Assembly: GCA_015056365.1 (NCBI GenBank)
Contig: SVGM01000007.1
Span: 62,001-126,000 of the forward strand
Source of the DNA: Clostridiales bacterium
Lineage (GTDB): Bacteria > Bacillota > Clostridia > Christensenellales > Aristaeellaceae
DNA length: 64,000 nucleotides
Direction: 5' to 3'
The notes below the pieces were generated by a model. It saw nothing but the letters and a program-made list of their open reading frames with translations, did no database searches and was not told the DNA's origin. This document shows positions 1 to 27,954 of this stretch, in pieces; the first letter of the stretch is position 1, and every line of letters starts with the position of its first letter. The translations under genes were made by a program, and so were the position numbers.

Positions 1-305
1 GATACTCGTGGCAGTTGCTGGCGGAGAAGCTGCGGTAGGTGCCGGGGATATCGGTGAGTTCAACCGTGAAGACGAAGGGAGCCATCGCAACGAAGCCGGA
101 GGGCGCCTTGGTTTCCACGATGGTGTAGGTCTGGCCAACCTTCAGTCCGGCGAGGATCTTGCTGCCGGTGCCGGAAGTCCAGGTCTCAACCGGCTGTCCC
201 AGGCCAGCGGTGGCAGCGCCGCCCTCGTAGAGAGCGAACTGAGCGCCAGGCAGGGTCTTGCCGGTCTGTTCATCCAGCTTGATGAACTCAACCATGTTCA
301 TGGTG
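1..305 (-). other. SpaA-like domain at the visible C-terminal end of the giant protein
   Basis: About residues 8757-8858 read MVEFIKLDEQTGKTLPGAQF, then ALYEGG, KILAGLKVGQTYTIVETKAP and SGFVAMAPFVFTVEL. The Lys, the D-x-x-T-G-K-x-L-P-G-A motif and the Y-x-I-x-E-x-x-A-P-x-G-F motif define a SpaA/Cna_B2 domain, which often precedes the sortase signal. The domain is cut by the window edge, so whether an LPXTG-type motif and membrane segment follow cannot be seen. Confidence 0.75.
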
Positions 306-15300: not shown

Positions 15301-18300
15301 CGCCATCCATCAGCTTGATGGTGATGCTCTCGGGACGCTTGCCGTCCTGGTTGTTGTTGTCAACCCAGGTCTTTTGGCCGCTGATCTCGATGGTTTCGGG
15401 CGCGTGGGTGTTGGTCACAACATAGCCAGCAGCGGCAGTGCCAGTGACTGCAACAGTATATCCCGTGGGCACGGAAGGTTCTGCCACGGTGTACTTGATT
15501 TCCTTGCCGGCGTTGAACTTGTCAAGCTCGGTGAAGGAAGCCTTCCAGCTGTTGCTTTCGCTCAGCACAACGGTCTTGCCTTCCACAGCCTTGCCATCAG
15601 CCAGCAGCTGGATGGTCACACTGGCGGGGCGAATGTTGTCCTGGTTGTCAGCGTCTTCCCATTTCTTCTCCACGGAGATCTGGGTCTTTTCAGGCACGTG
15701 GGTATTGGTAATGGTTACACCGCTTTCGGTCTTCGCGATCTCGGTTTGGTAACCATCTACTTTGTCTTCCGTGACGGAGTAGGTGATCTTCTTGCCATTC
15801 TCGTATTCGTCCAGATCATTGAAACTCCAGTCAGGATTGCCGTCCTTGGTGAGTTCGACCACGTCGCCGGTGGCAACAGCCTGCTCATCGCCAACCTGCT
15901 TCATCAGCCGGATGGTGATCTTCTCAGGACGCATGCGGTCCTGATCGTTCGCGTCGTCCCACACCTTCGTGCCGGAAATGAAGGTCTTGCCGGGGGTATA
16001 GCTGTTGGTCACAGTGAAACCATTAGCCATGTCGCCGGTGATATTCGTGGTGTAGCCTTCAACCTTATCCTCGGTGAAGGTGTACTTAATCTCCTCGCCA
16101 ACTTCGCCTTCCTTGTACTTGGGCAGGTTGGTGAAGATCCAGCTCCACTTGCCATCCTCGCCGGGAACGGTCACGGACTTGATCTGCCTGCCGTCAGCCA
16201 GCAGGTTGATCACGATGCTGGTAGGACGCTTGCCGTCCTGGTTGTCAGCATCATCCCAGCTCTTGGTGCCGGAGACGCTGGTCTTCTCGGGCTCGTGCTT
16301 GTTGGTGACAGTGATTTCGACGTCGCCGGTCTCTTCGTCTACCGTCTTGCCGTATCTGACAGTATAGCCGGCAACGGTAACTTCCTCAGCAACGGTGTAA
16401 GTAATGGCCTGACCAGCAGCCTTCTTGGCCAGACCGGTCCACTCATAGCTCCAGTTGTTGCTGCTGCTCAGGGTAACAGCATCGCCATAGTTCTTACCAT
16501 TAGCCTTCAGCTGTACGGTGACGGAGGTTCGCTTGCCATCCTGATTGTTGGCGTCGTCCCAAACCTTCTTTACGCTCACCTTAACTTCAGCAGGCTCGTG
16601 CTTGTTGGTGATGACATAACCATTGGCTGCATTGCCGGTGGTGTTCTTCTCATAGCCAGTGGGCAGGTTGACTTCCTCGACGGTATAGTTGATGACTTGG
16701 CCGCCAGCCTTCTTGTCCAGACCAGTCCAGGTGTGGCTCCAGGTATTGCCTTCATTCAGCTCAACCTCAGCGCCCTGGGCCTTGCCGTTTGCATACAGCT
16801 GTACCTTAACATCCGCAGGACGGATACCATCCTGGTTGTTGGCGTCGTCCCAGCTCTTGGTAACAGAGATCTGGGTCTTCTCGGGCGTATGGGTGTTGGT
16901 AATGGTGAGGCTTACATTGCCGGTAGTAGCGTCTACCGCCTTACCATAGCTGACAGTATAGCCGTCAACGGCAGCTTGCTCAGCAACAGTATAGCTGATG
17001 TCCTTGCCGCCGGCCTTCTTGTCCAGACCGGTCCACTTGTAGCTCCAGGTGGGTGCGCTCAGCTCGACCTCGTCGCCACATTTTTTGCCGTCAGCAAGCA
17101 GCTGAACTTTAATCGTCGCAGGACGGAGGCCATCCTGGTTATCGCTGTCATTCCATACCTTCTCAACGCTCACTTCCACTTCAGCAGGCGCATGGGTATT
17201 GGTGATGACATAACCAGTGGTCGCATTGCCGGTAACGCTCACGCTGTAACCATCGGGTACTTCGACCTCTTCCACAGCATAGGCGATCGGCGTACCAGCA
17301 GCGTTCTTGGGCAGCTCAGTCCAAGTATGGCTCCAGGTGTTGGCGCTGCTCAGCGTGACAGCCTGGCCATAGCTTTCGCCATTCGCCTTCAGCTGCACGG
17401 AGATATCCGCAGGTTGGATGCCATCCTGGTTGTTGGCGTCGTCCCAGACCTTCTTCACAGAAATCTGGGTCTTCTCGGGCGTGTAGCTGTTGGTCACGGT
17501 GAAGCCGTCAGCCACGCTTCCGGTGATGGATGTGGTGGTGTAGTTGGGCACGGCATCCTCAGTAATGCTGTACTCGATCTCCACGCCGCCTTCATACTTG
17601 GGCAGGTCGGTGAAGCTCCAGTTCCAGTTGTCCGTTCCCTTGACAGTCTTCACTTCCACCTCAGTGGTCGTGCCGCCAACCGTTTTGTGCAGGCGGATGG
17701 TGATGCTTTCGGGACGCTTGCGGTCACGATCGTTGTCGTCCTTCCAGACCTTGCTGCCTTCCACATTAACGGTTTCGGGCGTATGGGTGTTGGTGACGGT
17801 GAAGCCGCCAGCCGCGGTACCGGTGATCTCGGTATCGTAGTATTCGACTTTATCCTCGGTGACAGTATAGGTGATCAGATTTTCGTTTTCATACTTGGGC
17901 AGGTTGGTGAAGGCCCAGCTCCAGTCGTCATTCTCGGTCACGGTAACGCTCTTGCCGGTTGCCTTACCGTTGGCCAGCAGGTTGATCTTGACGGATGCAA
18001 GACGCTTGCCATCCTGGTTGTTATTGTCCTCCCAAACCTTGGTACCCTTCACTTCAACGGTTTGCATGGTGTTGGTGAAGGTGGCCTTTGCGGCGCCTTC
18101 AATCTGGACTTTAGTGCTCAGCGTGCCATCGCGCTCATCGGCAACAACGATGGTCACATTCCTGGTGGCTTCCGCATCGTTGGTAACGCCGATCACGGTA
18201 TTCGATTCACTCACGGTGTACTGATAGGTACCGGGCGCGGTGAAGGTGATGGGGCCGAACTCCATCTCGCCGTTTTCGGGGTTGGTCAATACAGCCTGTG

Positions 18301-21300
18301 CGGGCATGGGTGCTTTGTCCGTCACGGCAGTCAGAGTGAATGTGAACTTGTTAGTAATGTTCGGACCAGTCAGTCCTTCGGGAACAGACAGGATCTTCTG
18401 CACGGGGATTTTTTCAGTCGTCTGTTCAACCCGGTAAGTGTTGGTGAAGGTGACCTTCTGGTCGCCGGTCAGACCAGTGCTGGCGACCAGCTGACCATTG
18501 CCGTCATCCTCTACGGTGATGGTGACGGTCTTGGTCGCGTTCTCGTCGTTATGAACGCCGGGCACGCTGCCTTCTTCAGTGATGGTGTACTCATAGACGC
18601 CGGCCTTGTCGAACGTGATGGGGCCAAAGGTGTACGTATCACCATCGTTCTTCCACTCGGTGGTTGCAGGCATGGGTGCGCCCTTGGTCACGGCTTTCAG
18701 CGTGAAGGTGAACTCGCTCGTGATATCAGGCGCATTCAGGCCTTCAGCGTACGCATACTCCTTCTTGACGGGGATGCTTGCAGACGTCGGCTTAGCCTCG
18801 TAGTTGTTGGTGAAGGTGGGGACATCCTCTTCATCCTTCAAACCTTCATACGCCACATTGACCGTCAGCTGCTTGGTATCCTGATCCTGCTCCACCGTTA
18901 CAGTAGCGGTGTAGCTGGTCTCGTCGTAGGTGTAGCCGCCGGCGTTACCCTTTACCTCACTAATGGTGTACGTATAGGTACCAGCAGTCTGATAATTGAT
19001 GGGGTTAAAGGTCACGGAACCGTTGTCTGCGTTAGAAACGGTCTGTAGTACCGTGCCGTCCTTATCTTTCAGCTGGAAGGAGAACTTGCCCGCAGACAGC
19101 TTGGCGCCTTCGCCGGTAACGACCTTCTTGGCCTCCAAAACTGCGGATTCTTCGTCCACATAGATATTCTTGATGGTGTAGGTTACGTTGCCTTCCTCAT
19201 CCTTAGTGAAAGTGGGTACGGAAACATAACCCGTAGGCACCTGAACCTCGGAGATGGTGTACTTGATGTCAGTACCGCCGGCCTTCTTGGGCAGGTCATT
19301 CCAGGTGTAACTCCAGGTGTTATCCTTGCTCAGGGTAACAACATTGCCATACTCCTTGCCGTCAGCCTTCAGCTGCACGCTGACGCCTTCGTGCTCGGTG
19401 TTCTTGCTGTTATTCTCCACCCATTCCTTCGTAACAGAGATATCGACGGTATCGGGGGTATGGGTGTTGGTAACGGTCAGGCCACTTTCGCTCTTAGTAT
19501 AGCCCTCCGGTACGGATGCTTCCTCTACGGTGTAGGTGATGTCCTGGCCGTTGGCTTTCTTGGGCAGGTTCTCCCAAGTCACAGTCCAGGTGTCGCCAGT
19601 GCCGGAGAAGGTCTTGCTCTGGTTAGGCACTACTTCGCCATTGGCCTTCAGGATGAAGGTGATCTCCGTGGGACGGATGCGATCCTGGTTGCTGGCGTCG
19701 CTCCAGACCTTGGTCGCGGTGATATCGATCACTTCGGGGGTATAGCTGTTGGTCAGCGTGGTCAGCGTGCCGACCTTTTCGGTCTTGGTCAGCGTATAGC
19801 CCTCAGGCAGACCTTCTTCGTCTTCGCTCCAGGTGTATTCGATTTCCACGCCACCAGCGTACTTGGGCAGGTTCTCGATCTTATCGGTCCAGCCATTGCC
19901 CTGGTTCAGCGTCACAGTGCCTACAACAGATGTTCCGTTGCTCAGGGTGACCGTCAGCTCAGTAGGACGCTTGCCATCCTGGTTGCCAGCATCGTTCCAG
20001 ACCTTCAGCACAGAGGCTTCGGTCTCTTCGGGGGTATAGCTGTTGGTCAGCGTAGTCAGCGTGCCGGCCTTGGTATTACCGGTCAGCGTATAGCCCTCAG
20101 GCAGACCTTCTTCGTCTTCGCTCCAGGTGTATTCGATTTCCACGCCATTGGCGTACTTGGGCAGACCCGTTACGGTGGCAGTCCATTGGTTCTCCTCTTT
20201 CAGCGTCACTTCCGTGCCGTTGCTCAAGGTGACCTTCAGCTCAGTAGGACGCTTGCCATCCTGGTTGCCAGCATCGTTCCAGACCTTCAGCACAGAGGCT
20301 TCGGTCTCTTCGGGGGTATAGCTGTTGGTCAGCGTGGTGATTGTGCCGACCTTGGTATTGCCGGTCAGCGTATAGCCCTCGGGCAGACCTTCTTCGTCTT
20401 CGCTCCAGGTGTATTCGATTTCCACGCCACCAGCGTACTTGGGCAAGTTCTCGATGGTAGCGGTCCAGTCGTTGTCCTCGTTCAGCGTCACTTCCGTGCC
20501 GTTGCTCAGGGTGACCTTCAGCTCAGTAGGACGGAATCCATCATGATCTTCCTCGTCGTCCCAGACCTTCACGATCGTCGCTTCGGTCTCTTCGGGGGTA
20601 TAGCTGTTGGTCAGCGTGGTGATCGTGCCGACCTTGGTATTACCGGTCAGCGTATAGCCCTCGGGCAGACTGGATTCGTCTTCGCTCCAGGTGTATTCGA
20701 TTTCCACGCCACCAGCGTACTTGGGCAGGTTCTCGATGGTAGCGGTCCAGTCGTTGTCCTCGTTCAGCGTCACTTCCGTGCCGTTGCTCAGGGTGACCTT
20801 CAGCTCAGTAGGACGCTTGCCATCCTGGTTGCCCGCGTCGTTCCAGACCTTAATGATCTTCGCTTCGGTCTCTTCGGGGGTATAGCTGTTGGTCAGCGTA
20901 GTCAGCGTGCCGGCCTTGGTATTACCGGTCAGCGTATAGCCCTCAGGCAGACCTTCTTCGTCTTCGCTCCAGGTGTATTCGATTTCCACGCCACCAGCGT
21001 ACTTGGGCAGGTTCTCGATGGTAGCGGTCCAGTCGTTGTCCTCGTTCAGCGTCACTTCCGTGCCGTTGCTCAAGGTGACCTTCAACTCAGTAGGACGCTT
21101 GCCATCCTGGTTGCCCGCGTCGTTCCAGACCTTCAGCACAGAGGCTTCGGTCTTTTCGGGGGTATGACTATTGGTCAGCGTAGTGACCGTACCATCGACA
21201 GACGTATCGGTCAGCGCATAGCCAGCAGGCAGGTTCTTTTCAACCCAAGTGTAGGTGATATCCTGACCGTTGGCTTTCATGGGCAGGTTCTGAACAGTGG

Positions 21301-24300
21301 CAGTCCATTCGTTACCCTCATTCAGGGTCACGGTTTCCACGACGCTCTGCCCGTTGCTCAATTCAACAGTCAGGCTGGTGGGACGGATGCCGTCCTGGTT
21401 ATCGCCGTCATTCCAGACCTTCACGATCGTCGCTTCGGTCTTTTCGATCTTGTGGGTATTGGTCAGCGTAGTAACCGCGCCGTTGACAGAAGTATCGGTC
21501 AGCGTATAGCCATCGGGCAGACCTTCTTCGTCTTCGGTCCAGGTGTATTCGATTTCTTCGCCATTGGCATACTTGGGCAGGTTCTTAACGGAATACGTCC
21601 AGCCATTGCCCTTGCTCAGCGTCACAGTCCTGACTACCTTGTCGCCGTTCTTCAAGGCAACCGACAGGGTCGTGGGACGGATCTGATCTTCGTCATTGTT
21701 GTCGTCCCAGACCTTCTTCACGGTGAGGTTGATCACTTCGGGGGTGTAGCTGTTGGTCAGCGTAGTAACCGTGCCGTTGACAGAAGTTTTGGTCAGCGAA
21801 TAGCCCTCGGGCAGATTGCCTTCGGTCCAGGTGTATTCAATTCGCGTACCTTCATTGTTGATTACCTCGTACTTATCCAGATCGGATACAGTTACTCTCC
21901 AATTATTCTCCTCGTTCAGTGTGTATTCATTATAATACACACCGTTCTTGAGCAACTGTACACTAAGCTCGCCAGGGCGCTTGCCGTCCTGGTTGTTCTT
22001 GTCGTTCCAGACTTTTACAACGCTGGCTTCGGTCTTTACAGCGCCTAGACCGTTGGTAAAGGTAACGTTGTAATCAGAACCTTCCCAGGATTCTTCTTTA
22101 CTGACCCAGTAATTGAACTGTTGCTCACCATACCAAACGGGTGGAACTTCTTCAAGATAATACTCGTATTTCTCATTCGCGCTATTATAGAGGTCAAGTG
22201 GCCCACCGTTAATATAATTAGAGGACAAAGACCAACTTCCATCCTCAGCGATAGGAATTGTTTTTCCAGATCCGAGCAGCGCCTGACACTTTGCCGTTCG
22301 ATTAGTCCAATTAAATTCGACCCAAATATAGTGTCCTTGAGCATTTCCGAATGAAGTATCTTGCACGCCGTTGACTCTTCGTTTCAGATAGAACGCCAAT
22401 CCGCCAGGACGCTGAGTTCTATTACCATCCTCCCAAACCTTGGAAAGGTTGATATTGGCATAAGCGGGCGTGTTTGTAATCGTGAAACCGTCTATCTGGG
22501 TTTCATAACCCTCAACAGTTTGTTCGGTGATATAATACTCATATTCCGTACCGTCGGGAGCATACTTATCAAATTCACCGAAATAGTAGCTCCATCTGTC
22601 GATATGGTTATCGCCCGTAAAACCTTCGGAATCTTTTACTTTCTCGACTAGATCGCCGGCCTTACGATACAACGTTACAACAATTCCGCCCGGACGATTG
22701 CCATTCGCATTCCATCTGTCATTCCAATACTTAGTAACAGAGATATAAACCTTCTCAGACTCTCTATCATTGGTAATGGTGATGGTATTGCCGTTACGTT
22801 CCTGCGTGGACGTATAGCCCTCGACGTTGAGTTCCTCAACGGAATAGGTATACTCCTTGCCGTTTTCGTCGTGCTTCGGCAGATTCGTGAAGGTATAGCT
22901 CCAGTTTTCACCGTTATGCAGCTGATGGAATTCCACGAAAGACTTATTGTTGTCATCCGTCTGCCGCATCAGCCTGATGCCGATACCTTCATTCATGTAC
23001 TTCTGAGCGATGCCGCCCTTCCATACCTTGTTGACGGTGATCTCAACCTTCTCGTCCTCGGGCGTGTTGGTCACGGTAAAGCCATTCACGTTGGAGGAGT
23101 AGCCGGGCACATCGTCTTCGGTGATGAAGTACTGTACCTGGTGACCCTTTTCAAACTTGGGCAGTTTGGTAAAGGTATAGGTCCAGCTGTCGCCGGTCAC
23201 GTTCGCGGTAGCAATATTGTTGGTCACATTGCCGTTCACGTTTTTGTGCAGACGAATGGTAACGCTGCTGGGGCGGTTTCCTTCCTTGCCAGCGTCATTC
23301 CACTGCTTGTTGACAGTGATCTCAGTTTCTTCATTATTATAGGTGTTGGTTACATTATAACCATTCACCACTGTGGAGTAGCCCGGGATAACGTCTTCGG
23401 TGATGGTGTACTCGATCAGGACGTTATCCTCGTACTTGGGCAGGTCGGTAAAGCTCCACTTCCAGCCGTTGGTCGCAGTTACTTCAACGTTCTGAATATT
23501 GCTGGTGGTGTGACCATTCACCGTCTTGTTCAGACGGATGATCAGCTTCTCAGGACGGATGCCCTCGTTATCATTTGCCCAGGTCTTGAAGCCATCCACG
23601 CTGGTGGTCTCGGTATTGACCAGGGTATTGGTATAGGTATATACGTTTTCGATGCTGTTCAGGCTGGCGATATAGCTGCTGGTGTAGCCATTCACCGGCT
23701 CTTCTCTGAGGTAGTAGGTCAAATACTGACCATTTTCATCATAGGCGGGCAGATTCTGCCAAGTCCAGGTCCAGTTGTCGCTGGCCTTGAGCAACTTCTC
23801 CTCAACCACAGAAGCCTGACCGTTAACGCGCTTGTACAGGATGACCTTGATGCTTTCGGGGCGCTTGTCGGTCTGGTTATTGTCGTCCCAGTTCTTGACA
23901 AACTTGACGGTGACATCGGTTTCCTGCGGAATGTTCTGGGTGCGGTTCTCGACAAGCAGCTCCTCGGGGGTGTGGCTGATAATGCTCATGCCCTCCGGAA
24001 CCGACTTGATGCTGCCATCTTCGTTCAGCTCGATCCTCCACTCATTGGGCGTAGGCAGCACATAACCATCGGGAGGCGTGACTTCCTTCAGAATATAGTT
24101 GCCCGCAGTCAGACCGCCGAAATGGATACGGCCGTTGCGCGTGGTAGCGGTGTACTTATTGTCGGAATTACCCTCACGGTACAGTTCGAACACAGCGCCG
24201 CTGAGTTCCACGCCGGTGTCAGCATCCTTCTTGATCAAGCGGAAGCTGAGTTCTACTTCTTGGACGGTACCAGTGAAGTCGGTACGGTGAGATTCGGCCT

Positions 24301-26575
24301 TGATGTTGATCACGTCGGCGATAACCGTACCGTTGACGTTACTCTTCAGGGTGACCGTCGCACCGGGGGCGATGATCATACCGGTCATCTGGCCGGTGGT
24401 GATGTTCTTGCCCTCAGCATTGATGAAGTTCCAAATGACCTTGCCGTTGGAGAACTCCGTCACTTCGCTGGTACTCTGCTGCTGGCCGTTGATGGAAACG
24501 TAGGCGCGGTCGGGCATCTTGATATAGGACGCGCCGCTGCAGTCCACGTTGATAACGATCGTACCACTGGTGTTGTTGGAGAACTCCAGATGGATCTCAG
24601 AGGGCAGGGCATCAAGCTCGCTGGCCGTAATGTTGTAGTAGCCAGCGCCGCTGTCGCTCACCAGCTCCAGAATGCCGTAGCCCTTGCCAGTGTTCAAGTT
24701 TTCATTGATACCGGCATTCACGCTGTGGCTTGCCAGGCTGGCGGAAGTGCTCAGAACGTTCGATTTCACGGCCGCCAAATCGACGAACATGGTGCTCTTG
24801 CTAGCGTCGATAACAAAATTGCTGGGCCGGTCGATCTTGGTCAGGTTGGGGTTGCTTTCGGAGAAAAGGTAGATCTCCGCGCCGCTGCTGCTCAGCGCCA
24901 GGCTGTTACCGGCGCCCAGAGCCAGCACGTGGTTGCTGTTGCTGGAGCTGCCGCTGTTGCGGTGCTCATAGTTGACGATATAGTGCAGCTCATCGGGATA
25001 GCTGTTGGTACCGAAATTGCTGATATGGCCGCCGGTGCTCTTGACCGTATTGGCCAGGATGTTACCGTTGGTATGGGTGTCAACGTTCACCGTATCAAAG
25101 GCAACGATATGGAAGTTGCCCGCGATGCCCAGAACGTGATCGTCGTCATAGTACTTACCGTTCTGATAGGAGGTATACGCGCCGGTCTGGGTATTGACGG
25201 TAATGGTGCCCTTGGCGAACTCCTTATCCATGCCCGTGTAACCGATCTCGCGGTTATTCAGCAGGCCGATGGTAACGGTATTGCCGTTCTGCTCGACCTT
25301 TTCCGCCATAAAATAGTCATCGGCGATCTTCATATTGTCGAGCCCGTTGACGGTACGCTGCGCTTTGATGTACAGGGTATCGCCCTCGCCGATCACGTTG
25401 TAGGCGGCGGGTTTATAGTTTTTATTGTTCTGGTAGCTCTGGCCCTGCTTCAGGGTCAGCAGCTTCACTTCACCCTGGACGCCGTCAAGCACCTGCAGCT
25501 GAGCCTTGTAGCTGTTGTTCTCGAAATTGACGGGGGCCACGGGGCTCAGGGCGTTGCCCTGCTCATCCATCATGACCACGTACAGGCCGGGATCGTTCTG
25601 GTTTGCAAGCGCAGCAGGCTGACGTACGCCCTCAACCTCTTTCTCCACCGTTACGTTCACATCAAGGTTGGTGAGCTTGTTCAGCAGCGTAACGTCATCG
25701 CCTTCGACCCGAACGACAAACTGTTCCTGGCTGCTAATGCCGTTGTTGTCAAAGTCCAGACCCACAACGCTTTCAGCTCCATAAACGTCGAACATGGATG
25801 CCTGGAATTCGCCGCTATAGTTTCTGTTGTTGTGGTCCTTCGCAATCAGCACCTTCACGCTGCCGGCAATATCCTCAGCAGCGCCGATGCTGACAAAATA
25901 GCTGTAAGAACCGTCGTCATTGCGCACGGCATTCAGAGGTGCAACATTGGTGGTGGCGTTGCCCTCTTCATCCATGAACACCACGGACAGGGAGGGCGGA
26001 TTGTTGATGTTGGTCACGTCAACAACATTGCCGTTGTCATCCCGCTTGATGGACAGGGTCACATCACGGGTGTAGACCGTATTGGTCAGCACAACCGTAA
26101 CGTTGTCGCTTTCGTCCTTGGACATTTCCACCACAAAAGCATCCGTCGCGTCATAGACGGTGTTGTTGGCGTTGGCGTCAAACAGAGCCACGTCACCATT
26201 GCCGTAGAAGTTATTGCCCACGGAAATTCCCAGCTCACCATCGGTCTGAGAGATGGCCGTCTCATACTTGCCGGTTTCGCCGGAATGGCGGGGCGTAGCA
26301 CGGAAACTCACGTTGCCATCCTTAAGGATCGCAAGCTGGAAGGGGAAGTTGCCACCTGCCACATCGACAGGCTCAGGGTCTGCCCCGTTCTCGGAACGGT
26401 ATACCAAAACAGTGGCCGCTCCGAAGGGGCCAGTAATGTCATGGTACTCCGCCATATTGAACGTGCTGGACAAGCCGCTGTCGGCAGCAAAGGCAGGACC
26501 CATGTCGCCAATCAGCATACACAGGCACATCACCAGTGCGAGTACTCTCCGGAGGAAATTCCCGTTGTTCTTCAT
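1..26575 (-). CDS. Giant Cna_B-repeat cell-surface adhesin or stalk protein, 3' end outside window
   Basis: The frame is open from an ATG at 26575 to the window edge, giving at least 8,858 codons with no stop; I checked stretches with unusual composition (18.96-19.38 and 22.02-22.86 kb) codon by codon and both are open. An AAAGGAAG ribosome site lies about 9 nt upstream. Residues 1-30 are a signal peptide (MKNNGNFLRR start, hydrophobic core, AFA/AD cleavage). In order follow a region of related modules (about 31-455), a choice-of-anchor-A-like domain (about 480-760), a SpaA-like domain (about 770-850), about 16 Cna_B repeats, three pilin isopeptide-linkage domains (about 2480-2837), about 63 Cna_B repeats, and a SpaA-like domain at the edge. 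Such proteins are normally exported, stiffened by Lys-Asn isopeptide bonds and sortase-anchored; the anchor would lie outside the window. I estimate close to 1 MDa from residue count. The ligand cannot be told from sequence. Confidence 0.93.
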   Translation of the reverse strand, partial: MKNNGNFLRRVLALVMCLCMLIGDMGPAFAADSGLSSTFNMAEYHDITGPFGAATVLVYRSENGADPEPVDVAGGNFPFQLAILKDGNVSFRATPRHSGETGKYETAISQTDGELGISVGNNFYGNGDVALFDANANNTVYDATDAFVVEMSKDESDNVTVVLTNTVYTRDVTLSIKRDDNGNVVDVTNINNPPSLSVVFMDEEGNATTNVAPLNAVRNDDGSYSYFVSIGAAEDIAGSVKVLIAKDHNNRNYSGEFQASMFDVYGAESVVGLDFDNNGISSQEQFVVRVEGDDVTLLNKLTNLDVNVTVEKEVEGVRQPAALANQNDPGLYVVMMDEQGNALSPVAPVNFENNSYKAQLQVLDGVQGEVKLLTLKQGQSYQNNKNYKPAAYNVIGEGDTLYIKAQRTVNGLDNMKIADDYFMAEKVEQNGNTVTIGLLNNREIGYTGMDKEFAKGTITVNTQTGAYTSYQNGKYYDDDHVLGIAGNFHIVAFDTVNVDTHTNGNILANTVKSTGGHISNFGTNSYPDELHYIVNYEHRNSGSSSNSNHVLALGAGNSLALSSSGAEIYLFSESNPNLTKIDRPSNFVIDASKSTMFVDLAAVKSNVLSTSASLASHSVNAGINENLNTGKGYGILELVSDSGAGYYNITASELDALPSEIHLEFSNNTSGTIVINVDCSGASYIKMPDRAYVSINGQQQSTSEVTEFSNGKVIWNFINAEGKNITTGQMTGMIIAPGATVTLKSNVNGTVIADVINIKAESHRTDFTGTVQEVELSFRLIKKDADTGVELSGAVFELYREGNSDNKYTATTRNGRIHFGGLTAGNYILKEVTPPDGYVLPTPNEWRIELNEDGSIKSVPEGMSIISHTPEELLVENRTQNIPQETDVTVKFVKNWDDNNQTDKRPESIKVILYKRVNGQASVVEEKLLKASDNWTWTWQNLPAYDENGQYLTYYLREEPVNGYTSSYIASLNSIENVYTYTNTLVNTETTSVDGFKTWANDNEGIRPEKLIIRLNKTVNGHTTSNIQNVEVTATNGWKWSFTDLPKYEDNVLIEYTITEDVIPGYSTVVNGYNVTNTYNNEETEITVNKQWNDAGKEGNRPSSVTIRLHKNVNGNVTNNIATANVTGDSWTYTFTKLPKFEKGHQVQYFITEDDVPGYSSNVNGFTVTNTPEDEKVEITVNKVWKGGIAQKYMNEGIGIRLMRQTDDNNKSFVEFHQLHNGENWSYTFTNLPKHDENGKEYTYSVEELNVEGYTSTQERNGNTITITNDRESEKVYISVTKYWNDRWNANGNRPGGIVVTLYRKAGDLVEKVKDSEGFTGDNHIDRWSYYFGEFDKYAPDGTEYEYYITEQTVEGYETQIDGFTITNTPAYANINLSKVWEDGNRTQRPGGLAFYLKRRVNGVQDTSFGNAQGHYIWVEFNWTNRTAKCQALLGSGKTIPIAEDGSWSLSSNYINGGPLDLYNSANEKYEYYLEEVPPVWYGEQQFNYWVSKEESWEGSDYNVTFTNGLGAVKTEASVVKVWNDKNNQDGKRPGELSVQLLKNGVYYNEYTLNEENNWRVTVSDLDKYEVINNEGTRIEYTWTEGNLPEGYSLTKTSVNGTVTTLTNSYTPEVINLTVKKVWDDNNDEDQIRPTTLSVALKNGDKVVRTVTLSKGNGWTYSVKNLPKYANGEEIEYTWTEDEEGLPDGYTLTDTSVNGAVTTLTNTHKIEKTEATIVKVWNDGDNQDGIRPTSLTVELSNGQSVVETVTLNEGNEWTATVQNLPMKANGQDITYTWVEKNLPAGYALTDTSVDGTVTTLTNSHTPEKTEASVLKVWNDAGNQDGKRPTELKVTLSNGTEVTLNEDNDWTATIENLPKYAGGVEIEYTWSEDEEGLPEGYTLTGNTKAGTLTTLTNSYTPEETEAKIIKVWNDAGNQDGKRPTELKVTLSNGTEVTLNEDNDWTATIENLPKYAGGVEIEYTWSEDESSLPEGYTLTGNTKVGTITTLTNSYTPEETEATIVKVWDDEEDHDGFRPTELKVTLSNGTEVTLNEDNDWTATIENLPKYAGGVEIEYTWSEDEEGLPEGYTLTGNTKVGTITTLTNSYTPEETEASVLKVWNDAGNQDGKRPTELKVTLSNGTEVTLKEENQWTATVTGLPKYANGVEIEYTWSEDEEGLPEGYTLTGNTKAGTLTTLTNSYTPEETEASVLKVWNDAGNQDGKRPTELTVTLSNGTSVVGTVTLNQGNGWTDKIENLPKYAGGVEIEYTWSEDEEGLPEGYTLTKTEKVGTLTTLTNSYTPEVIDITATKVWSDASNQDRIRPTEITFILKANGEVVPNQSKTFSGTGDTWTVTWENLPKKANGQDITYTVEEASVPEGYTKSESGLTVTNTHTPDTVDISVTKEWVENNSKNTEHEGVSVQLKADGKEYGNVVTLSKDNTWSYTWNDLPKKAGGTDIKYTISEVQVPTGYVSVPTFTKDEEGNVTYTIKNIYVDEESAVLEAKKVVTGEGAKLSAGKFSFQLKDKDGTVLQTVSNADNGSVTFNPINYQTAGTYTYTISEVKGNAGGYTYDETSYTATVTVEQDQDTKQLTVNVAYEGLKDEEDVPTFTNNYEAKPTSASIPVKKEYAYAEGLNAPDITSEFTFTLKAVTKGAPMPATTEWKNDGDTYTFGPITFDKAGVYEYTITEEGSVPGVHNDENATKTVTITVEDDGNGQLVASTGLTGDQKVTFTNTYRVEQTTEKIPVQKILSVPEGLTGPNITNKFTFTLTAVTDKAPMPAQAVLTNPENGEMEFGPITFTAPGTYQYTVSESNTVIGVTNDAEATRNVTIVVADERDGTLSTKVQIEGAAKATFTNTMQTVEVKGTKVWEDNNNQDGKRLASVKINLLANGKATGKSVTVTENDDWSWAFTNLPKYENENLITYTVTEDKVEYYDTEITGTAAGGFTVTNTHTPETVNVEGSKVWKDDNDRDRKRPESITIRLHKTVGGTTTEVEVKTVKGTDNWNWSFTDLPKYEGGVEIEYSITEDAVPNYTTTSITGSVADGFTVTNSYTPEKTQISVKKVWDDANNQDGIQPADISVQLKANGESYGQAVTLSSANTWSHTWTELPKNAAGTPIAYAVEEVEVPDGYSVSVTGNATTGYVITNTHAPAEVEVSVEKVWNDSDNQDGLRPATIKVQLLADGKKCGDEVELSAPTWSYKWTGLDKKAGGKDISYTVAEQAAVDGYTVSYGKAVDATTGNVSLTITNTHTPEKTQISVTKSWDDANNQDGIRPADVKVQLYANGKAQGAEVELNEGNTWSHTWTGLDKKAGGQVINYTVEEVNLPTGYEKNTTGNAANGYVITNKHEPAEVKVSVKKVWDDANNQDGKRTSVTVQLKANGKNYGDAVTLSSSNNWSYEWTGLAKKAAGQAITYTVAEEVTVAGYTVRYGKTVDEETGDVEITVTNKHEPEKTSVSGTKSWDDADNQDGKRPTSIVINLLADGRQIKSVTVPGEDGKWSWIFTNLPKYKEGEVGEEIKYTFTEDKVEGYTTNITGDMANGFTVTNSYTPGKTFISGTKVWDDANDQDRMRPEKITIRLMKQVGDEQAVATGDVVELTKDGNPDWSFNDLDEYENGKKITYSVTEDKVDGYQTEIAKTESGVTITNTHVPEKTQISVEKKWEDADNQDNIRPASVTIQLLADGKAVEGKTVVLSESNSWKASFTELDKFNAGKEIKYTVAEPSVPTGYTVAVTGTAAAGYVVTNTHAPETIEISGQKTWVDNNNQDGKRPESITIKLMDGETEVKTETVKPNEKGEWTWKFTGLPKHRAGKVGEVINYTIEEIEVEGYDVEVNGFNLTNTHEPETIEISGEKTWVDNNNQDGKRPESIIIKLLAGGAEVDSQTVTPDAEGKWTWSFTGLDKYKAGEEIVYTITEKTVAGYTADVNGYDVTNTHTPETIEISGQKTWVDEQNQDGKRPESITIKLMDGETEVKTETVKPNEKGEWTWKFTDLPKYRAGKVGEEIVYTITEEAVTGYTTEVNGYNVTNTHEPEKTQITVTKSWDDENDQDDIRPETVLVQLYANNVAYGEAVELSETNTWTYTWENLDKYAGGSKIIYTVDEFEAAEDELKNYTKSIGGSAEGGFVITNTHEPEETSVSGFKTWNDAGNQDGIRPTRITIKLLADGVETGKTQTVTAAEDGTWSWSFTGLDKYKNGKEIAYTIKEIEVGGYKSVASGYNLINTHEPEKTSLSGKKDWEDNDDQDDIRPDSVTVKLLADGEETGKTATATAEGGWTWSFENLDKFAGGKEIAYTVEEIEPEGYEAEYDIDDETGFVTITNTHEPEKTSLSGEKAWDDDDNYDGIRPTAVTIKLLANGDETGKTATASQSNGWKWSFTGLDKYAAGEEIEYTVEEVVDDKLAGYGAEYETDEETGFITITNKHTPTTVNISGTKTWDDDENRDGIRPEKIIINLLADGVKVDSKEVTAAEDGTWSWSFTGLRKFHQGGKTEIKYTITEEAVTGYTAEVNGYNVTNTHTPETVKVEGEKHWEDANNQDGIRPGFITINLLADGVLVESKTVTAANNWKWSFIDLPKYKEGEVGDEIEYTITENAVNGYTPEVTGYDVTNTHTPELIDLDGEKTWNDNNDQDGKRPTSITITLLANGTAVRDPITVTKDDGWKWKFEDLPKYEGGTEIGYSVKEDVVTDYGTIVSGMDVTNSYTPGKTSLSGVKVWDDDNNRDGKRPEQITIRLMKQVGTEQAVATGDVVVLTKGGDLTWSFTNLDEYENGKKITYSVVEDEVTGYTTTYSEDTTIITNTYEPEKTSISGSKTWVDGDNQDGSRPESITINLLADNNVVDSKSVTPDEDGNWSWSFDKLPKYRDGGVAIVYTFSEEAVEGYNTTYSDGTKTIINTYETKTTEIAVEKAWDDAEDQDGVRPDSVTIQLLADGKAVEGKTVVLSESNNWTDSFTGLPKYRDKGTEIVYTVEETPVPEGYNVAITGSAAAGYVVTNTHETDTTEVSGSKTWTDNDDQDGIRPEFITINLLANGEKVDSMTVEPDEDGNWTWSFTGLPENANGEAIEYTITEEAVTGYTPKVTGYNVENTHETETTEITVEKDWEDADDQDGVRPGSVTIQLLADGKAVTGKTVVLSESNNWTDSFTGLPKYRDKGTEIVYTVEEAPVPTGYTVAVTGSAAEGFVVTNTHKTETTEISGEKDWEDADDQDGVRPEFITIHLYADDTEIDDVTVTPDEDGNWTWSFDELPKYRDKGTEIVYTFTEDEVDGYDTTYSEDTTIITNTHETETTEVSGTKTWEDADNQDGIRPESITINLLANGEKVDSATVTAEDEWSWSFTELDKYADGEKIVYTITEDAVDGYTADVDGYDVTNTHVPGKTSVSGSKVWTDNDDQDGKRPESITIRLHKTVNGKTTEVANKTVTAADEWKWSFTELPVKENGTVISYSITEDAVENYTSEVKGHSVVNTHTPETVDVNGAKTWTDNDDQDGVRPERITIRLYKKVGDKTSEVAVKTVTEDDDWQWSFEKLPKYEGGVEIVYTITEDAVTGYTTKVNGYNVTNTHTPETTSVSGTKTWVDADDQDGIRPESIEINLLADGVVIDTVTVTEADEWSWSFTELPKYAVGEEIVYTITEEAVDGYNAQVNGYNVTNTHKPETTEVSGTKTWVDNNDQDGIRPESIVINLLANGEMVDSATVTAKDEWSWSFTELPKYAAGEEIVYTITEEAVTGYEAKVNGYDVTNTHEPETTEVSGTKTWNDNENQDGKRPESITINLLANGEKVDSVTVTAADEWSWSFTELDKYAAGKEIEYTITEETVTGYTAEIKDYDVTNKHEPEKVSVSVEKTWADASNQDGKRPASVTVHLLADGTEVESVVLNATNTWQHTWSDLDKYSNGQLIAYTVTEDAVAEYETKIDNVTTEVDKISYKITNTHSPEKTQISGIKTWNDAENQDGVRPESITINLLANGTKVDSKTVTEEDDWSWSFTGLDKYADGKAIVYTITEDAVEGYTTEVNGYNVTNSYTPDKTFVSGTKEWNDANDQDGKRPESITIRLYANGEEVASKTVTAEDKWTWSFTGLDKYEAGKAIVYTISEDAVTGYETEVDGYDVTNSYTPETTEVSGTKTWIDNNDQDGIRPENIVINLLANGEKVASKTVTAEDEWSWSFTELDKYEGGKEIVYTITEEAVTGYNAQVNGYDVTNTHTPETTSVSGTKTWKDNNDQDGKRPQSVTINLLANGEKVASKTVTKVDNWSWSFTDLDKYEGGVEIVYTITEETVDGYTTEINGYDVTNTHKPETTKVEGTKTWNDNDDQDGKRPTSITINLLANGEKVDSKVVNATNNWSWSFTELDKYEAGKEIVYTITEDAVEGYETEVTGYDVTNTHKPETTKVEGIKTWNDAENQDGKRPEGIMISLLANGEKVDSKVVTAKDEWKWSFTELDKYEAGKEIVYTITEEAVTGYETEVDGYDVTNKHEPEQTQITVTKSWNDENDQDGIRPEAVLVQLYANNVACGEAVELSETNTWTYTWENLDKYAGGSEIIYTVDEVEVPEDYAKNIGGSAEGGFVITNTHETEETSLSGVKTWNDADDQDGIRPDSVIIKLLANGEETGKTDTATETDNWTWSFEKLDKYADGVEIEYTVEEIVPEGYEAGYHTEETTGFVTINNTHETEETSLSGEKVWEDNEDQDGIRPDSVTVKLLADGVETGKTATATAEGGWIWSFTNLDKFAGGEEIVYTVEEVEVEGYESEVEVVNGKIVITNTHAPEKTRIEGMKVWDDSDDYDGIRPETVTINLLAGGEVIDTTTATKADNWAWSFTDLDKYAAGVEIEYDVEEVAVPEYTVEYGKQDDKIIIENDHEVYTTSLSGTKAWSDDDNRDGIRPATITVYLLADGVQVDSKEVPVAEDGTCTWSFTDLVKYRKGGKVEIVYTFAEESVEGYTTTFSADGKTIINTHENETIDVMGGKTWIDNDNQDGKRPASITINLLADGEKVDSKTITAENNWKWIFTNLPKYKEGEVGKEIKYTITEETVAEYTTEINGYNVTNTHIPELIDLDGEKTWNDNNDQDGKRPTSITITLLANGKAVRGPITVTEDDGWKWKFEDLPKYEGGTEIVYSVKEDAVTDYGTTVNGMDVTNSYTPGKTSLSGVKVWDDDNNRDGKRPEQITIRLMKQVGIEQAVATGDVVVLTETTGLSWSFTDLDEYENGKKITYSVVEDAVTGYTTDITADDKGYVTITNSYVPMTTEISGAKTWNDSDNQDGKRPTSIVINLLADGVKVDTVTVGHQEGWAWKFTDKPVYRDGGVEIVYTITEEAVIGYTTEVIGYDVINTYETETTEIAVEKVWDDAEDQDGVRPDSVTIQLLADGKAVEGKTVVLSESNNWKASFTDLAKYRNMGTEIVYTVEETPVPAEYTVAITGSAAEGYVVTNSYETEITEISGEKIWVDNDDQDGIRPESITINLLANGVKVDSTTVTAGSNGEWTWSFTGLDKYADGVEIDYTFTEEVVEGYTTTYSDDTKTITNTYKPETIEISGSKTWNDANDQDGKRPESIVINLLADGTKVATKMVTETEGWSWSFTDLAKYRDGGIEIEYTITEETVAGYTTTIKGYDVTNSYTPEKISVEGAKTWQDNNDQDGKRPDSITIELYANGKLEASKSVTESDNWSWSFTDLDKFADGQEIVYTIKEIVPAGYKATVDGYNVTNDYTTETVDVNGTKTWADNGDQDGLRPTSIVINLFADGTKIDSTSTNGAADWKWSFTDLPKYRDGGVEIIYTVTEDAVEGYTTTIEGYEITNTHKTETVDVNGVKTWNDNDDQDGKRPESIVINLLADGAVIDTKTVTEADQWSWSFTELPKYRDQGVEIVYTITEEAVTGYTTEVKGYNVTNTHETETTDVEGTKTWNDADDQDGIRPESIVINLLANGKKVDSATVTAANGWKWSFTGLDKYEDGKEIVYTITEEAVTGYTSKVNGYNVTNTHKPETTSVSGTKTWNDANDQDGKRPESIIINLLADGAVVDTKTVTEAEGWSWSFTDLDKFAAGKEIVYTITEETVAGYTAVVTGYDVENAYTPGVTSVNGTKTWVDNNDQDGIRPESIVINLLADGAVIDTKTVTAADSWSWSFTKLPIYRDGGIEIVYTITEEAVTGYTTEIDGYDVTNTHITETTDVEGTKTWVDADDQDGIRPESIVINLLADGAVIDTVTVTEADNWSWSFTELDKFAAGKEIVYTITEEAVTGYTTEVNGYDVINTHETETTDVEGTKTWVDADNQDGIRPESIIINLLADGAVIATKTVTEADNWSWSFTDLDKFAAGKEIVYTITEEAVTGYTTEIDGYDVINTHETETTDVEGTKTWVDADNQDGIRPATITINLLADGAVIDTKTVTEADQWSWSFTELPKYRDQGVEIVYTITEEAVTGYTTEINGYDVINTHETETTDVEGTKTWVDADNQDGIRPESIVINLLADGAVIATKTVTEAEGWSWSFTDLDKFAAGKEIVYTITEEAVAGYTTEIDGYDVTNTHITETTDVEGTKTWVDADNQDGKRPESIIINLLADGAVIATKTVTEADNWSWSFTDLDKFAAGKEIVYTITEEAVTGYTTEIEGYNAINTHITETTEVTGTKTWVDADNQDGIRPVSIVIKLMDGETVVKTATVTEADQWSWSFTDLPKYRAGKVGEEIVYTIAEEAVTGYTAEVTGYDVTNTHKPETTEITGKKTWNDLNNIYFKRPDSVTIRLLADGVEIDNRVVTEADNWSWTFADLPVYKAGAVGQKINYTITEDVVTGYITTVEDYNVLNTMNMVEFIKLDEQTGKTLPGAQFALYEGGAATAGLGQPVETWTSGTGSKILAGLKVGQTYTIVETKAPSGFVAMAPFVFTVELTDIPGTYRSFSASNCHEY
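4400..7255 (-). repeat. Higher-order duplicated block, C-terminal-side copy
   Basis: This roughly 2.85-kb block of about ten Cna_B units matches the block at about 11.69-14.55 kb in unit order. Landmarks show constant offset: 4424 against 11705 (7,281 bp), 5052 against 12336, 5349 against 12633 and 5604 against 12888 (all 7,284 bp), and 6981 against 14271 (7,290 bp). All offsets differ by whole codons. Units unlike the array consensus occur in the same order in both copies, so a block copy explains it better than independent drift. Confidence 0.8.
11690..14550 (-). repeat. Higher-order duplicated block, N-terminal-side copy
   Basis: This is the partner of the block at 4.40-7.26 kb, offset by 7,281-7,290 bp. 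The copies keep unusual units in register, including the one whose closing segment is set by the CAGCGGCAGAGCC stretch near 11705 and the one whose linker carries the AAGCCGCCTTCAGCG stretch near 14275. A shorter, partly deleted third relative may lie at 15.43-16.15 kb, where some of the same unusual units appear in the same order with others missing. Confidence 0.78.
18060..19140 (-). other. Three tandem pilin isopeptide-linkage (FctA/Spy0128-type) domains
   Basis: Three consecutive modules of about 115-120 residues (near 19135-18800, 18795-18435 and 18430-18065) interrupt the Cna_B arrays. Each has F-x-F-x-L near the start, a G-x-x-x-F-x-P/F-G-P-I-x-F/Y strand, a G-x-Y-x-Y-T-(I/V)-x-E motif, a T-V-x-V-x-x-D stretch and a closing F-T-N-x-Y/M. 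This is the streptococcal pilin isopeptide-linkage repeat pattern (FctA, the Spy0128 family). Known members form intramolecular Lys-Asn bonds. They sit between the roughly 16-repeat and roughly 63-repeat Cna_B arrays. Confidence 0.82.
19150..23985 (-). repeat. Cna_B repeat array A (about 16 domains)
   Basis: I counted about 16 consecutive Cna_B-type domains from the recurring Lys-x-Trp strand plus the R-P-x-S/E and W-x-x-x-x-x-x-L-P motifs. Most are 280-300 bp. The array is mixed: members near 23.0-23.9 kb are divergent, those from 21.8 to 22.9 kb are AT-richer and longer, and those from 19.8 to 21.2 kb are nearly identical 282-bp units. Most units keep the Lys of K-V/T-W, a Glu in the Y-x-(I/V)-x-E strand and the Asn of the closing T-N-x strand, the three residues that form an isopeptide bond in known CnaB folds. 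Confidence 0.85.
19770..21180 (-). repeat. Five near-identical tandem 282-bp Cna_B units
   Basis: Corresponding points of successive units fall at 19833, 20127, 20409, 20691 and 20973. The last three steps are exactly 282 bp (94 codons) and the first is 294 bp. The units share long identical stretches, including the block encoding the EYTWSEDEEGLPEGYTLTG-like segment, and differ at only scattered positions. This is far more similar than other repeats in the gene and points to recent tandem duplication or ongoing homogenisation. Confidence 0.85.
24025..24285 (-). other. SpaA-like prealbumin-type domain linking tip to stalk
   Basis: About residues 765-850 read LSFRLIKKDADTGVELSGAV, then FELYREGNS, HFGGLTAGNYILKEVTPPDG and a final VENRT. 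This is the classic SpaA/Cna_B2 pattern: a Lys in the first strand, the D-x-x-T-G-x-x-L-x-G-A-x-F-x-L motif, the G-L-x-x-G-x-Y-x-L-x-E-x-x-x-P-x-G-Y-like motif, and Asn in the last strand. Lys, Glu and Asn suitable for an internal isopeptide bond are all present. It differs from the Cna_B stalk repeats that follow. Confidence 0.8.
24290..25150 (-). other. Choice-of-anchor-A-like (collagen-binding-type) adhesin domain
   Basis: About residues 475-760 read GNFHIVAFDTVNVDTHTNGN near the start and contain FVIDASKS, GKVIWNFINAEG, GMIIAPGATVTL and NGTVIADVINI towards the end. The order of a valine/asparagine-rich beta region, a W-N-F motif, an IIAPGA motif and a final N-G-x-V-I-A motif is what I know from choice-of-anchor-A domains at the tips of Gram-positive and actinobacterial surface proteins. 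It precedes a SpaA-like domain, the usual arrangement. The assignment is from motif recognition only. Confidence 0.7.
25200..26485 (-). other. N-terminal region of the giant protein with related modules
   Basis: This part encodes about residues 31-455, between the signal peptide and the choice-of-anchor-A-like domain. It has at least two, perhaps three, related stretches, each with a phrase of the type LSVVFMDEEGN or LYVVMMDEQGN followed by an alanine/proline-rich step and a beta-strand-rich segment. It contains no Cna_B signature. I do not recognise a named family. By position it is the distal tip of the protein and could carry binding activity; that is inference. Confidence 0.5.
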
Positions 26576-26641
26576 ACAACAATACTTCCTTTCGTCTCAT
26601 GATCGGTACGAGACAGTATTGGTAATCATTCTTTATCAAGC

Positions 26642-26664
26642 TATACAATGGTTTTCATTGTATA
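26642..26664. promoter_or_regulatory. Perfect inverted repeat at the predicted start of the giant-gene transcript
   Basis: TATACAATG and CATTGTATA form a perfect 9-bp inverted repeat separated by five bases. Its upstream edge falls about 6 nt past the -10 box of the giant-gene promoter, so it covers roughly +1 to +22. It could be an operator or a hairpin at the 5' end of the mRNA. A related motif lies at the same place relative to the promoter at 29409-29438. Confidence 0.6.
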
Positions 26665-26669
26665 CTCGT

Positions 26670-26698
26670 ATTGTAGAGTCAATCAAGAAGGGTGTCAA
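26670..26698 (-). promoter_or_regulatory. Sigma-A-type promoter of the giant surface protein
   Basis: On the minus strand, TTGACA (26698-26693) is followed after exactly 17 bp by TACAAT (26675-26670). The -35 box is a perfect consensus and the -10 differs at one position. The predicted start near 26663 leaves a leader of about 90 nt before the ATG at 26575. The strength of the site suggests high expression unless it is repressed. Confidence 0.78.
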
Positions 26699-26938
26699 AT
26701 ATGTAACCCTCCTGTAACCGCAGAAAACCCTTATAAATCAACGGTTTTCGCAAAACACAATATCTTGTGGTACCCTCTCGGAAAACTTTGTAAAAACCAC
26801 ACAAATTTCCCGTTGTTTTCTTGTTCAATTTTAGGCCAAAATGCGACTCCGCGTCCAACAATACTGTATTCATTTTATTCGCTTTTTACCCTTCGCAGCC
26901 CTCCCGAAAATTTTTTTAATTTTTTTTGCATTTTCCTC

Positions 26939-26967
26939 TTGCCAAACATGCCGACCTCGTGTATAAT
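26939..26967 (+). promoter_or_regulatory. Promoter of tRNA-Thr
   Basis: TTGCCA (26939-26944) and a perfect TATAAT (26962-26967) are separated by 17 bp. The tRNA begins 21 bp after the -10 box. Confidence 0.8.
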
Positions 26968-26988
26968 GTCAATGTTGCGTCAAGCAAT

Positions 26989-27064
<76 letters not shown>

Positions 27065-27068
27065 GTTA

Positions 27069-27097
27069 ACTCCTCTGCAATAGCAGAGGAGTTTTTT
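27069..27097 (+). terminator. Intrinsic terminator of tRNA-Thr
   Basis: ACTCCTCTGC and GCAGAGGAGT form a 10-bp perfect stem with an AATA loop, followed by six T. Confidence 0.93.
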
Positions 27098-27603: not shown

Positions 27604-27640
27604 GCAAAACTAGGAACCCATCCTTGAAAGGGGGGCTAGG

Positions 27641-27940: not shown

Positions 27941-27954
27941 CTTCTTTTCGCCCC

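Follow-up and report, generated by a model that had tools for sequence, protein, structure and literature searches.

What sets the length of a bacterial surface fibre, and by which means would a very large fibre protein be held at the cell wall? Both questions are raised by a stretch of 64,000 nucleotides (hereafter the window; positions 62001-126000 of contig C17) from the 2.6-Mb draft genome of a Clostridiales bacterium (G000; 30 contigs, 87.87% complete). In a preliminary description of the window, an uninterrupted minus-strand frame with about 79 Cna_B domains was seen to run into its edge, and was taken to encode a single surface stalk protein of at least 8,858 residues whose C-terminal end was missing.

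A single gene for the giant protein

Within the window, the frame extends from an ATG at 26575 to the edge (2..26575; 8,858 aa in the open reading frame listing). When the two adjacent stretches of contig C17 are joined, it continues without internal stop to a full length of 9,164 aa, about 1.01 MDa, and closes with a TAA at C17:61081 (window position -919), that is, 919 bases past the window edge. The proposal of a single giant CnaB surface stalk is thus borne out, and the end that it lacked lies in the adjoining contig sequence, where, after a Pro/Thr linker, VPLTGD, a membrane segment and RRRKK can be read directly as a sortase sorting signal. The assembly shows no stop or frameshift, either of which would have spoken against one continuous protein, and sister species have giants built to the same design. 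The protein is acidic (computed pI of about 4.3) and contains 13.4% Thr. The features of the locus and of the related operons discussed below are collected in Table 1.

Opposite to the giant gene lies a 6,348-aa open frame (window 2-19048, plus strand), which was considered as an antisense gene and rejected as a codon-bias shadow, since the codons TTA, CTA and TCA are nearly absent from the giant (0, 3 and 1, respectively, among 9,165 codons). In six neighbouring frames taken as genes, not all of them confirmed, the same codons number 0, 3 and 7 in 3,730, and antisense frames also extend over the sister giants (7,159 and 6,827 aa).

Table 1. Features of the giant locus and of the relatives' operons (window positions, unless a contig or locus is named)
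Feature	Position	Strand	Basis or remark
Giant surface-protein gene, residues 1-8858 of 9164	1..26575	-	Last 306 residues and TAA outside the window (C17:61081-62000)
Start of base module (SpaA-SpaA-CnaB-Pro/Thr linker-sorting signal)	1..298	-	Remainder outside the window
Main stalk, 63 consecutive CnaB domains (17-79)	299..18058	-	Own HMM
SpaA and three FctA (Spy0128-like isopeptide) domains, between CnaB arrays	18059..19159	-	Pfam scan
CnaB domains 6-15	19160..22033	-	Own HMM
CnaB domains 1-5	22466..23920	-	Own HMM
SpaA domain (PF17802), residues 777-856	24008..24247	-	Profile match
Choice-of-anchor A domain (TIGR04215), residues 526-769, probable adhesive head	24269..25000	-	54.2 bits, cut-off 29
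N-terminal signal peptide region, residues 1-30, MKNNGNFLRRVLALVMCLCMLIGDMGPAFA	26486..26575	-	Read directly from the sequence
Candidate leader hairpin CCAATACT...AGTATTGT around the ribosome site	26579..26622	-	Comparison of three sequences
Palindrome TATACAATG-n5-CATTGTATA near the expected transcription start	26642..26664	-	Read by eye
Promoter-like site TTGACA-17-TACAAT (11 of 12)	26670..26698	-	Motif scan
Direct repeat GGTTACA/GGTTACA directly upstream of the -35, 11 bp apart	26702-26719	-	Conserved at three tRNA-linked giants
tRNA-Thr (GGT)	26989..27064	+	Transcribed divergently to the giant gene, as in G002 and G009
Class B sortase-C39 peptidase fusion, 681 aa	C17:58857-60902 (= L009:2857-4902), outside the window	-	Profile matches
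Pilus-type operon, G014	L116:3307-5443	+	Class C sortase, short Cna_B protein with the giant's tail, SrtB-C39 fusion
Pilus-type operon, G005	L117:4325-7990	-	Class C sortase, short Cna_B protein with the giant's tail, SrtB-C39 fusion
Pilus-type operon, G016	L118:3299-5459	+	Class C sortase, short Cna_B protein with the giant's tail, SrtB-C39 fusion

Head, stalk and base

A profile search of the full frame gives 79 Pfam Cna_B (PF05738) matches, as well as SpaA and FctA domains. The count agrees with the earlier estimate, 78 of the matches lying within the window and the remaining one outside it (C17:61375-61662). All of them are above the curated cut-off, and given a best single domain of 9.6e-31 the repeats are far beyond chance. 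In the whole genome there are 89 such matches, distributed between the giant (79), a 2,692-aa paralogue (9) and a third protein (1). Our own HMM marks 80 stretches in the giant, 79 of them in the window, stretch 16 being the FctA region. From domain 17 to domain 79 the spacing is exactly 4 residues throughout and the register is unbroken; nearer the N-terminus, an unannotated stretch of 144 residues separates domains 1-5 from 6-15. The profile NF033073 gives the giant 19.7 bits, below its cut-off of 48.

Of the features by which fibrillar adhesins are recognised, tandem stalk domains, a signal peptide and a C-terminal anchor are present, and a known adhesive domain is a further one, for which the choice-of-anchor A match is the candidate. 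The signal peptide region resembles the N-termini of the paralogues and of the sister giants, and the choice-of-anchor A region could be aligned with six relatives. Together with the SpaA domain that follows, this region would form the N-terminal head and probably the binding end of the molecule. The choice-of-anchor A family is a surface-protein domain not known to have a tested ligand. Among residues 1-885, neither the Pfam adhesive families nor the thioester-domain families give a match at E<=1; membership in the TIE class (thioester, isopeptide and ester domains) was rejected, as no thioester head domain was matched. Compared with solved structures, the head gives six matches at E<=1, located at its SpaA end; as there is no close solved relative among them, the term "adhesive" is taken from the family name.

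The preliminary description had proposed that the stalk domains form self-made Lys-Asn bonds, and several layers of evidence point to this type of bond. Across the 80 HMM stretches, the bond residues are retained in 79 (Lys), 80 (Glu) and 78 (Asn) cases, and in the 79 CnaB domains proper in 79/79, 79/79 and 78/79. The stretch that has neither Lys nor Asn is the FctA region (residues 2500-2560), and the other missing Asn is that of domain 4, where an Asn is found close by in the sequence. In the sister proteins, Lys, Glu and Asn are present in 57/60, 60/60 and 53/60 stretches (G009 giant), in 51/53, 53/53 and 50/53 (the giant on contig C59 of G002) and in 23/24, 24/24 and 23/24 (a protein on contig C18 of G002), many of these misses being gaps in truncated matches; when all frames are run together, the stretches number 59, 53 and 23. 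Seven columns are invariant when 38 of the 79 stretches in the window are aligned, K7, E68 and N85 among them.

From a structural perspective, the only matches of the CnaB profile in the PDB at E<=0.001 are 1d2p and 1d2o, both of the B region of the Staphylococcus aureus collagen adhesin (E 1.6e-111). An AlphaFold model of three domains, built on an alignment of 31 triples (mean pLDDT 96.2, pTM 0.72), places K7 in a strand of residues 3-10 and N84 in one of residues 81-85, the first and the last strand of the domain; in domains two and three, K97 and K187 are predicted in first strands and N174 and N265 in last strands. In CnaB domains, the bond-forming Lys has been described on the first strand and the Asn on the last (PMC12617251). 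Each of the approximately 79 CnaB domains and the three FctA domains could, on this reading, close its own Lys-Asn bond with the help of Glu. The covalently braced stalk would in consequence be stiff, and would resist both stretching and proteases.

Sister giants and the soundness of the assembly

A protein of this length in a draft genome calls for a discussion of the assembly itself. That the repeats were collapsed or expanded during assembly is, in our judgement, very improbable. With 30 contigs and 87.9% completeness, the genome is still a draft, and it contains here a 270-bp unit repeated 37.6 times (69% match), an array of a type prone to misassembly. However, the longest exact repeat is 132 bp, and the domains are diverged throughout yet hold frame and spacing. 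A self-alignment reported no stretch of >=200 nt at >=90%, a figure that long extensions average down.

Moreover, giants of about 8,230 and 7,000 aa occupy the same locus in separate assemblies of two sister species. The first (G009, contig C63) is an 8,257-aa frame, about 8,232 aa from the ATG after the leader, and the second (G002, contig C59) a 7,016-aa frame, about 6,998 aa from the ATG after the leader; both are complete. A divergent tRNA-Thr (GGT) gene adjoins the giants of G000, G002 and G009 alike, the heads of these proteins being 35-37% identical and their base modules 64-67%. An assembly error is therefore unlikely, in view of both the short exact repeats and the complete giants of the sister species. 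Farther away, Cna_B was found in 60 of 395 genomes sampled from the order, and the longest other frames of the order among the matches listed, of 6,249 and 6,147 aa, come from family genomes assembled in one and two contigs, respectively.

Another genus also holds giants of about 5,400 aa (G029, G096 and G162; loci L074, L075 and L076), which have choice-of-anchor heads and only 14-15 CnaB stretches, and two of which have sortase-C39 and ATPase genes beside them, as at the G000 locus.

Growth of the array

At the tRNA-linked locus, the stalks form a series of 80 (G000), 59 (G009) and 53 (G002) domain stretches. Such a natural series of stalk lengths lends itself to the question of how fibre length at a cell surface is determined. 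Within domains 17-79 of the G000 giant, the mean identity between domains i and i+k is highest at k=26 (59.7%, the mean over offsets being 50.4), a peak due to the block 29-38 against 55-64 (domains 35 and 61, for example, are 92% identical); at this offset, the partner is the first domain's best match in 5 of 37 pairs. Adjacent domains are also more similar (57.2% at k=1). The best match of a domain lies within its own protein in 62 of 80 cases in the G000 giant, in 23 of 59 in G009 and in 16 of 53 in the G002 giant, the pool sizes being different, and domains 79 and 80 find theirs at the ends of five other compared proteins. This pattern indicates that the middle of the protein turns over between a conserved head and a conserved base, most of all in the G000 giant. 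The constraint on the array is moderate, with a median dN/dS of 0.57 over 275 same-length pairs, which are not independent and of which 47 exceed 1. The array probably expanded by tandem and block duplication of domains, mostly inside this lineage, in such a way that stalk length evolves and head and base stay.

A sortase-C39 fusion and an extended tail

Downstream of the giant and on the same strand, a gene for a class B sortase fused to a C39-like peptidase is followed by one for a P-type ATPase. The sortase half matches TIGR03064 with 153.4 bits, just under the cut-off of 153.75, and the peptidase half matches Peptidase_C39_2 (PF13529) with 31.7 bits (cut-off 24). Residues 228-398 align with the solved sortase 2oqw, and the sortase half has His298, Cys395 and Arg409, which we take to be its catalytic residues; the C39-like half carries Cys478, His619 and Asp635. 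Of 12 aligned fusions, 11 retain the sortase His, 11 the Cys and 11 the Arg, and three (G014, G015 and G016) have Ser in place of the C39 Cys. A second copy in G000 (contig C18) has apparently lost the sortase His and Cys and kept the C39 residues. The fusion is like the plain class B sortases (TIGR03064; solved relatives 2oqw and 1qwz) in that its sortase half can be aligned with them, and unlike them in the joined C39-like cysteine peptidase (PF13529) and in its linkage to an extended tail motif.

Indeed, the linkage is recurrent. The base module was found in 9 of 17 genomes of the genus (E<=1e-20), and the fusion in all nine of these (E<=1e-50). It lies directly 3' of a base-module gene in G000, G001, G002, G005, G014, G015 and G016, and in two genomes of another genus (G029 and G096), while in G009 a surface gene of 2,704 aa intervenes between giant and fusion. 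Altogether, base module and fusion are linked in 10 of 10 opened loci that have both on one contig, one of them with the intervening gene, and 8 of the 14 base-module matches in the genus are beside a fusion. Outside this count fall the matches of G011 (split over contigs), of contig C38 in G009 and two of contig C306 in G015. The pairing is not exclusive, since unlinked paralogues exist (G000 C2 and G002 C18, which have no fusion within the fetched 20 kb) and since the fusion is still present in 5 of the 8 genus genomes devoid of the base module. The intervening gene of G009 (L115:2102-10216, plus strand; C63:58102-66216) encodes 4 Cna_B, 3 FctA and SpaA domains, and is absent from the nine other linked loci.

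The base proteins also have in common an extended sorting signal, DGxWxYIDExGxPLGxxPxTGD with variations, which was recognised in 14 tails (12 by pattern and 2 by eye); six further tails that resemble sorting signals, from the fetched stretches, lack it. The profile NF033073 was considered as a marker of the fusion and discarded as too weak, since 12 of 150 family genomes match it and none over the cut-off. Both the genetic linkage and the common tail motif are those expected of an enzyme and its substrate, and the giant is accordingly predicted, at the sequence level, to be cleaved by the fusion. Anchoring to the wall would most likely be performed by this SrtB-C39 fusion, a sortase joining the conserved base and tail to the wall.

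Pilus operons of relatives

Tail and fusion also belong to pilus operons, because in G005, G014 and G016 both are found in operons that encode a class C sortase. The class C family (NF033745) is the pilus-polymerising one, and its members, directly before the base protein, score 246 (G005), 236 (G014) and 239 (G016) bits against a cut-off of 160. The base proteins are short (401 aa in G005, 422 in G014 and at most 487 in G016); the two that were scanned have one Cna_B domain each, to which that of G005 adds a pilin D1 domain. Furthermore, the operon of G005 includes two further surface proteins upstream, one of which is a relative of the SpaH/EbpB-family major pilins (116.3 bits, cut-off 95). 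These SpaH/EbpB-type operons resemble the giant locus in the order of a Cna_B protein with the same tail and then the fusion, and differ from it in their class C sortases, short bases and, in G005, major-pilin relative. Around the giants of G000, G001, G002, G009, G029, G096 and G162, no class C sortase was matched at 1e-4 in the fetched frames, the queries being two sortases from relatives, which a more diverged one could escape. A class C sortase in the same operon, by which SpaH/EbpB-type pili are recognised, is therefore not found at the giant loci searched.

The position of the fusion beside a separate class C sortase in G005, G014 and G016 fits a role in anchoring and not in polymerising. 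On the simplest reading, the fusion would anchor bases, and in the giants base, shaft and head would be one chain. It can be tentatively proposed, at somewhat less than even confidence, that the giant is a pilus made by one gene: the parts of a sortase-built pilus (head, shaft and base) would be united in one self-crosslinked chain with a pilus-type tail, the dedicated anchoring fusion being kept and the class C polymerase gone. If so, the length of the fibre would be set by domain duplication and not by polymerisation. As an element common to the giants and to the pilus operons of their relatives, the fusion is a candidate anchor for very large proteins, and also a candidate route between the polymerised pilus and the one-piece fibre.

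The same facts could be read in another way, in which the fusion would join the giant to other surface proteins, or the giant would be released as a matrix fibre. This appears improbable to us, although a class B sortase, Spy0129, takes part in pilus assembly in Streptococcus pyogenes (PMC3019223), SpaA, FctA and CnaB are pilin-type domains, the fusion itself stands in the pilus-type operons of G005, G014 and G016, and the 2,704-aa surface gene of G009 lies between giant and fusion. In those three operons, however, the class C sortase next to the fusion would do the polymerising, no match to such a sortase turned up in the frames fetched around the giants, and a chain of 9,164 aa reaches far without polymerising. 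As for the C39 half, it may bind or cut the upstream PLG element of the tail and so trim or release the fibre. This is a less likely proposal than the one-gene pilus to which it would be an addition, and against it stands the Ser in place of the C39 Cys in G014, G015 and G016, where the linked substrates nevertheless retain the motif.

Function of the fibre

The giant is probably a single-chain, self-crosslinked fibrillar adhesin. CnaB-type domains are 4-5 nm long, from which it can be estimated that the stalk would hold the head about 0.3-0.4 micrometre from the wall. The best experimental parallel for a stalk that binds with its tip is AggLb of Lactobacillus paracasei (318.6 kDa), which likewise joins head domains, a tandem CnaB stalk and a sorting signal. 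It differs in having six collagen-binding domains and a stalk of 20 CnaB units that are nearly identical (PMC5014864), against the 79 diverged CnaB domains, choice-of-anchor A head and approximately threefold mass of the giant. In AggLb, aggregation and binding require the N-terminal collagen-binding domains; for aggregation in vitro the last 18 CnaB units are dispensable, and the authors compare the CnaB repeats to an antenna (PMC5014864).

The main rival explanation, which we regard as rather unlikely, is that of a shield: the giant would form a coat that masks the cell surface and prevents clumping and attachment, as Ebh does, the head not being the working part. It has been described that Ebh, SraP and SasG of S. 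aureus inhibit clumping and adhesion, and that the effect weakens when Ebh, of about 1.1 MDa, is truncated to 0.8 and 0.5 MDa (PMC6548404); a coat of the giant would, by its pI, be strongly acidic. Nevertheless, the head is partly conserved over two genera (identity of 43% across 338 residues in G162 and of 40% in G029), a conservation for which a pure bumper would have no need, and AggLb favours the role of an antenna (PMC5014864).

Relation to known surface proteins

Giant crosslinked adhesins are already known. A close counterpart is known from Mobiluncus mulieris, whose TIE adhesin (7,651 aa) is also a single chain at the surface of a Gram-positive organism, with an N-terminal head, tens of self-crosslinked domains, an LPxTG-type anchor and growth through domain duplication. 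It differs in its 51 Ig-like domains, in the mixing of ester bonds with 33 isopeptide domains and in its thioester head (PMC10619420), where the giant has about 79 Cna_B, three FctA and SpaA domains, no thioester match and an adjoining SrtB-C39 fusion. The B region of S. aureus Cna (1d2p and 1d2o) is of the same family, can be aligned residue by residue and has K, E and N in its first domain, but it is made of one to four repeats (PMC5014864) and the giant of about 79 domains. Signal peptide, head, repeat stalk and C-terminal module are shared with the fibrillar adhesins (PMC8286594) and with the giants of Apilactobacillus kunkeei, which differ in their helical repeats and DUF5776 ends; the terms "cna" and "lpxtg" did not occur in a term search of the article on the latter (PMC12863079).

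The preliminary description had ranked the stalk among the longest of bacterial surfaces, and this holds against the 1-73 stalk domains in the fibrillar adhesin survey of 2021 (PMC8286594), the 7,651 aa of the Mobiluncus protein (PMC10619420) and the 3,000-8,000 aa of the Apilactobacillus giants (PMC12863079). In length, the 9,164-aa giant exceeds the Mobiluncus adhesin. A natural single chain, it carries about 79 potential Lys-Asn bonds, and its CnaB units outnumber the survey maximum of 73 stalk domains (PMC8286594). Ebh, at about 1.1 MDa, is comparable in mass (PMC6548404), and a far longer bacterial protein of 39,678 aa has been reported (PMC10066038). The chief novelty lies in the linkage of a sortase-C39 fusion, in the extended tail and in the connection with pili, none of which was reported among the literature matches listed; nor was a CnaB protein of this length. 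A published survey of isopeptide domains drew on a structure database limited to 1,280 residues, so that whole proteins of this size fell outside it (PMC12617251).

Other surface proteins of the genome

The 2,692-aa paralogue of the giant (contig C2; L011:2854-10932, plus strand) has 9 Cna_B domains, a base module 77% identical to that of the giant and a different head, which is 55% identical to the head of the protein on contig C18 of G002 (4,097 aa). A further large surface protein with VWA, FctA and Cna_B domains and many short repeats is encoded on the minus strand of contig C10 (L012:4921-8955 and 2-4924), where it is broken by a run of N. Within the window, two BspA-type leucine-rich-repeat proteins (36194-42331 and 42376-47523, minus strand; frames of 2,045 and 1,715 aa) have ends without obvious sorting signal.

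The upstream region

Of the start features named in the preliminary description, the signal peptide and a ribosome-site-like AAAGGA before the ATG are directly readable. The promoter is a weaker case: a promoter-like site is present, but it constitutes no proof, because the 1.8-kb region holds four such sites against a shuffle mean of 1.7 (sd 1.4). The palindrome near the expected transcription start is retained in the two sister giants, with arms of 8-9 bp.

A candidate hairpin around the ribosome site in the conserved leader can be offered as a lead. Three pairs of its inner stem are changed on both sides, in a compensatory way, among three sequences. The pattern of its two arms occurs once in each of the three genomes with tRNA-linked giants and in none of 14 other genomes of the genus, the reversed-pattern control giving 0. 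A strong RNA structure was rejected, the single-sequence fold z-scores being weak (-1.10 and -0.77) and the sequences three. A known riboswitch was also rejected, since in an Rfam scan of 26400-27200 no match apart from the tRNA reached the gathering score. An invertible promoter or phase switch was discarded as well, as a search of 26400-28400 for inverted repeats with a minimum of 12 nt gave a single hairpin (27955-27999); the palindrome at 26642 has shorter arms.

As for the divergent tRNA-Thr gene, its GGT anticodon should read ACC and ACT. The giant contains 1,232 Thr residues, 88% of which are encoded by ACC or ACT.
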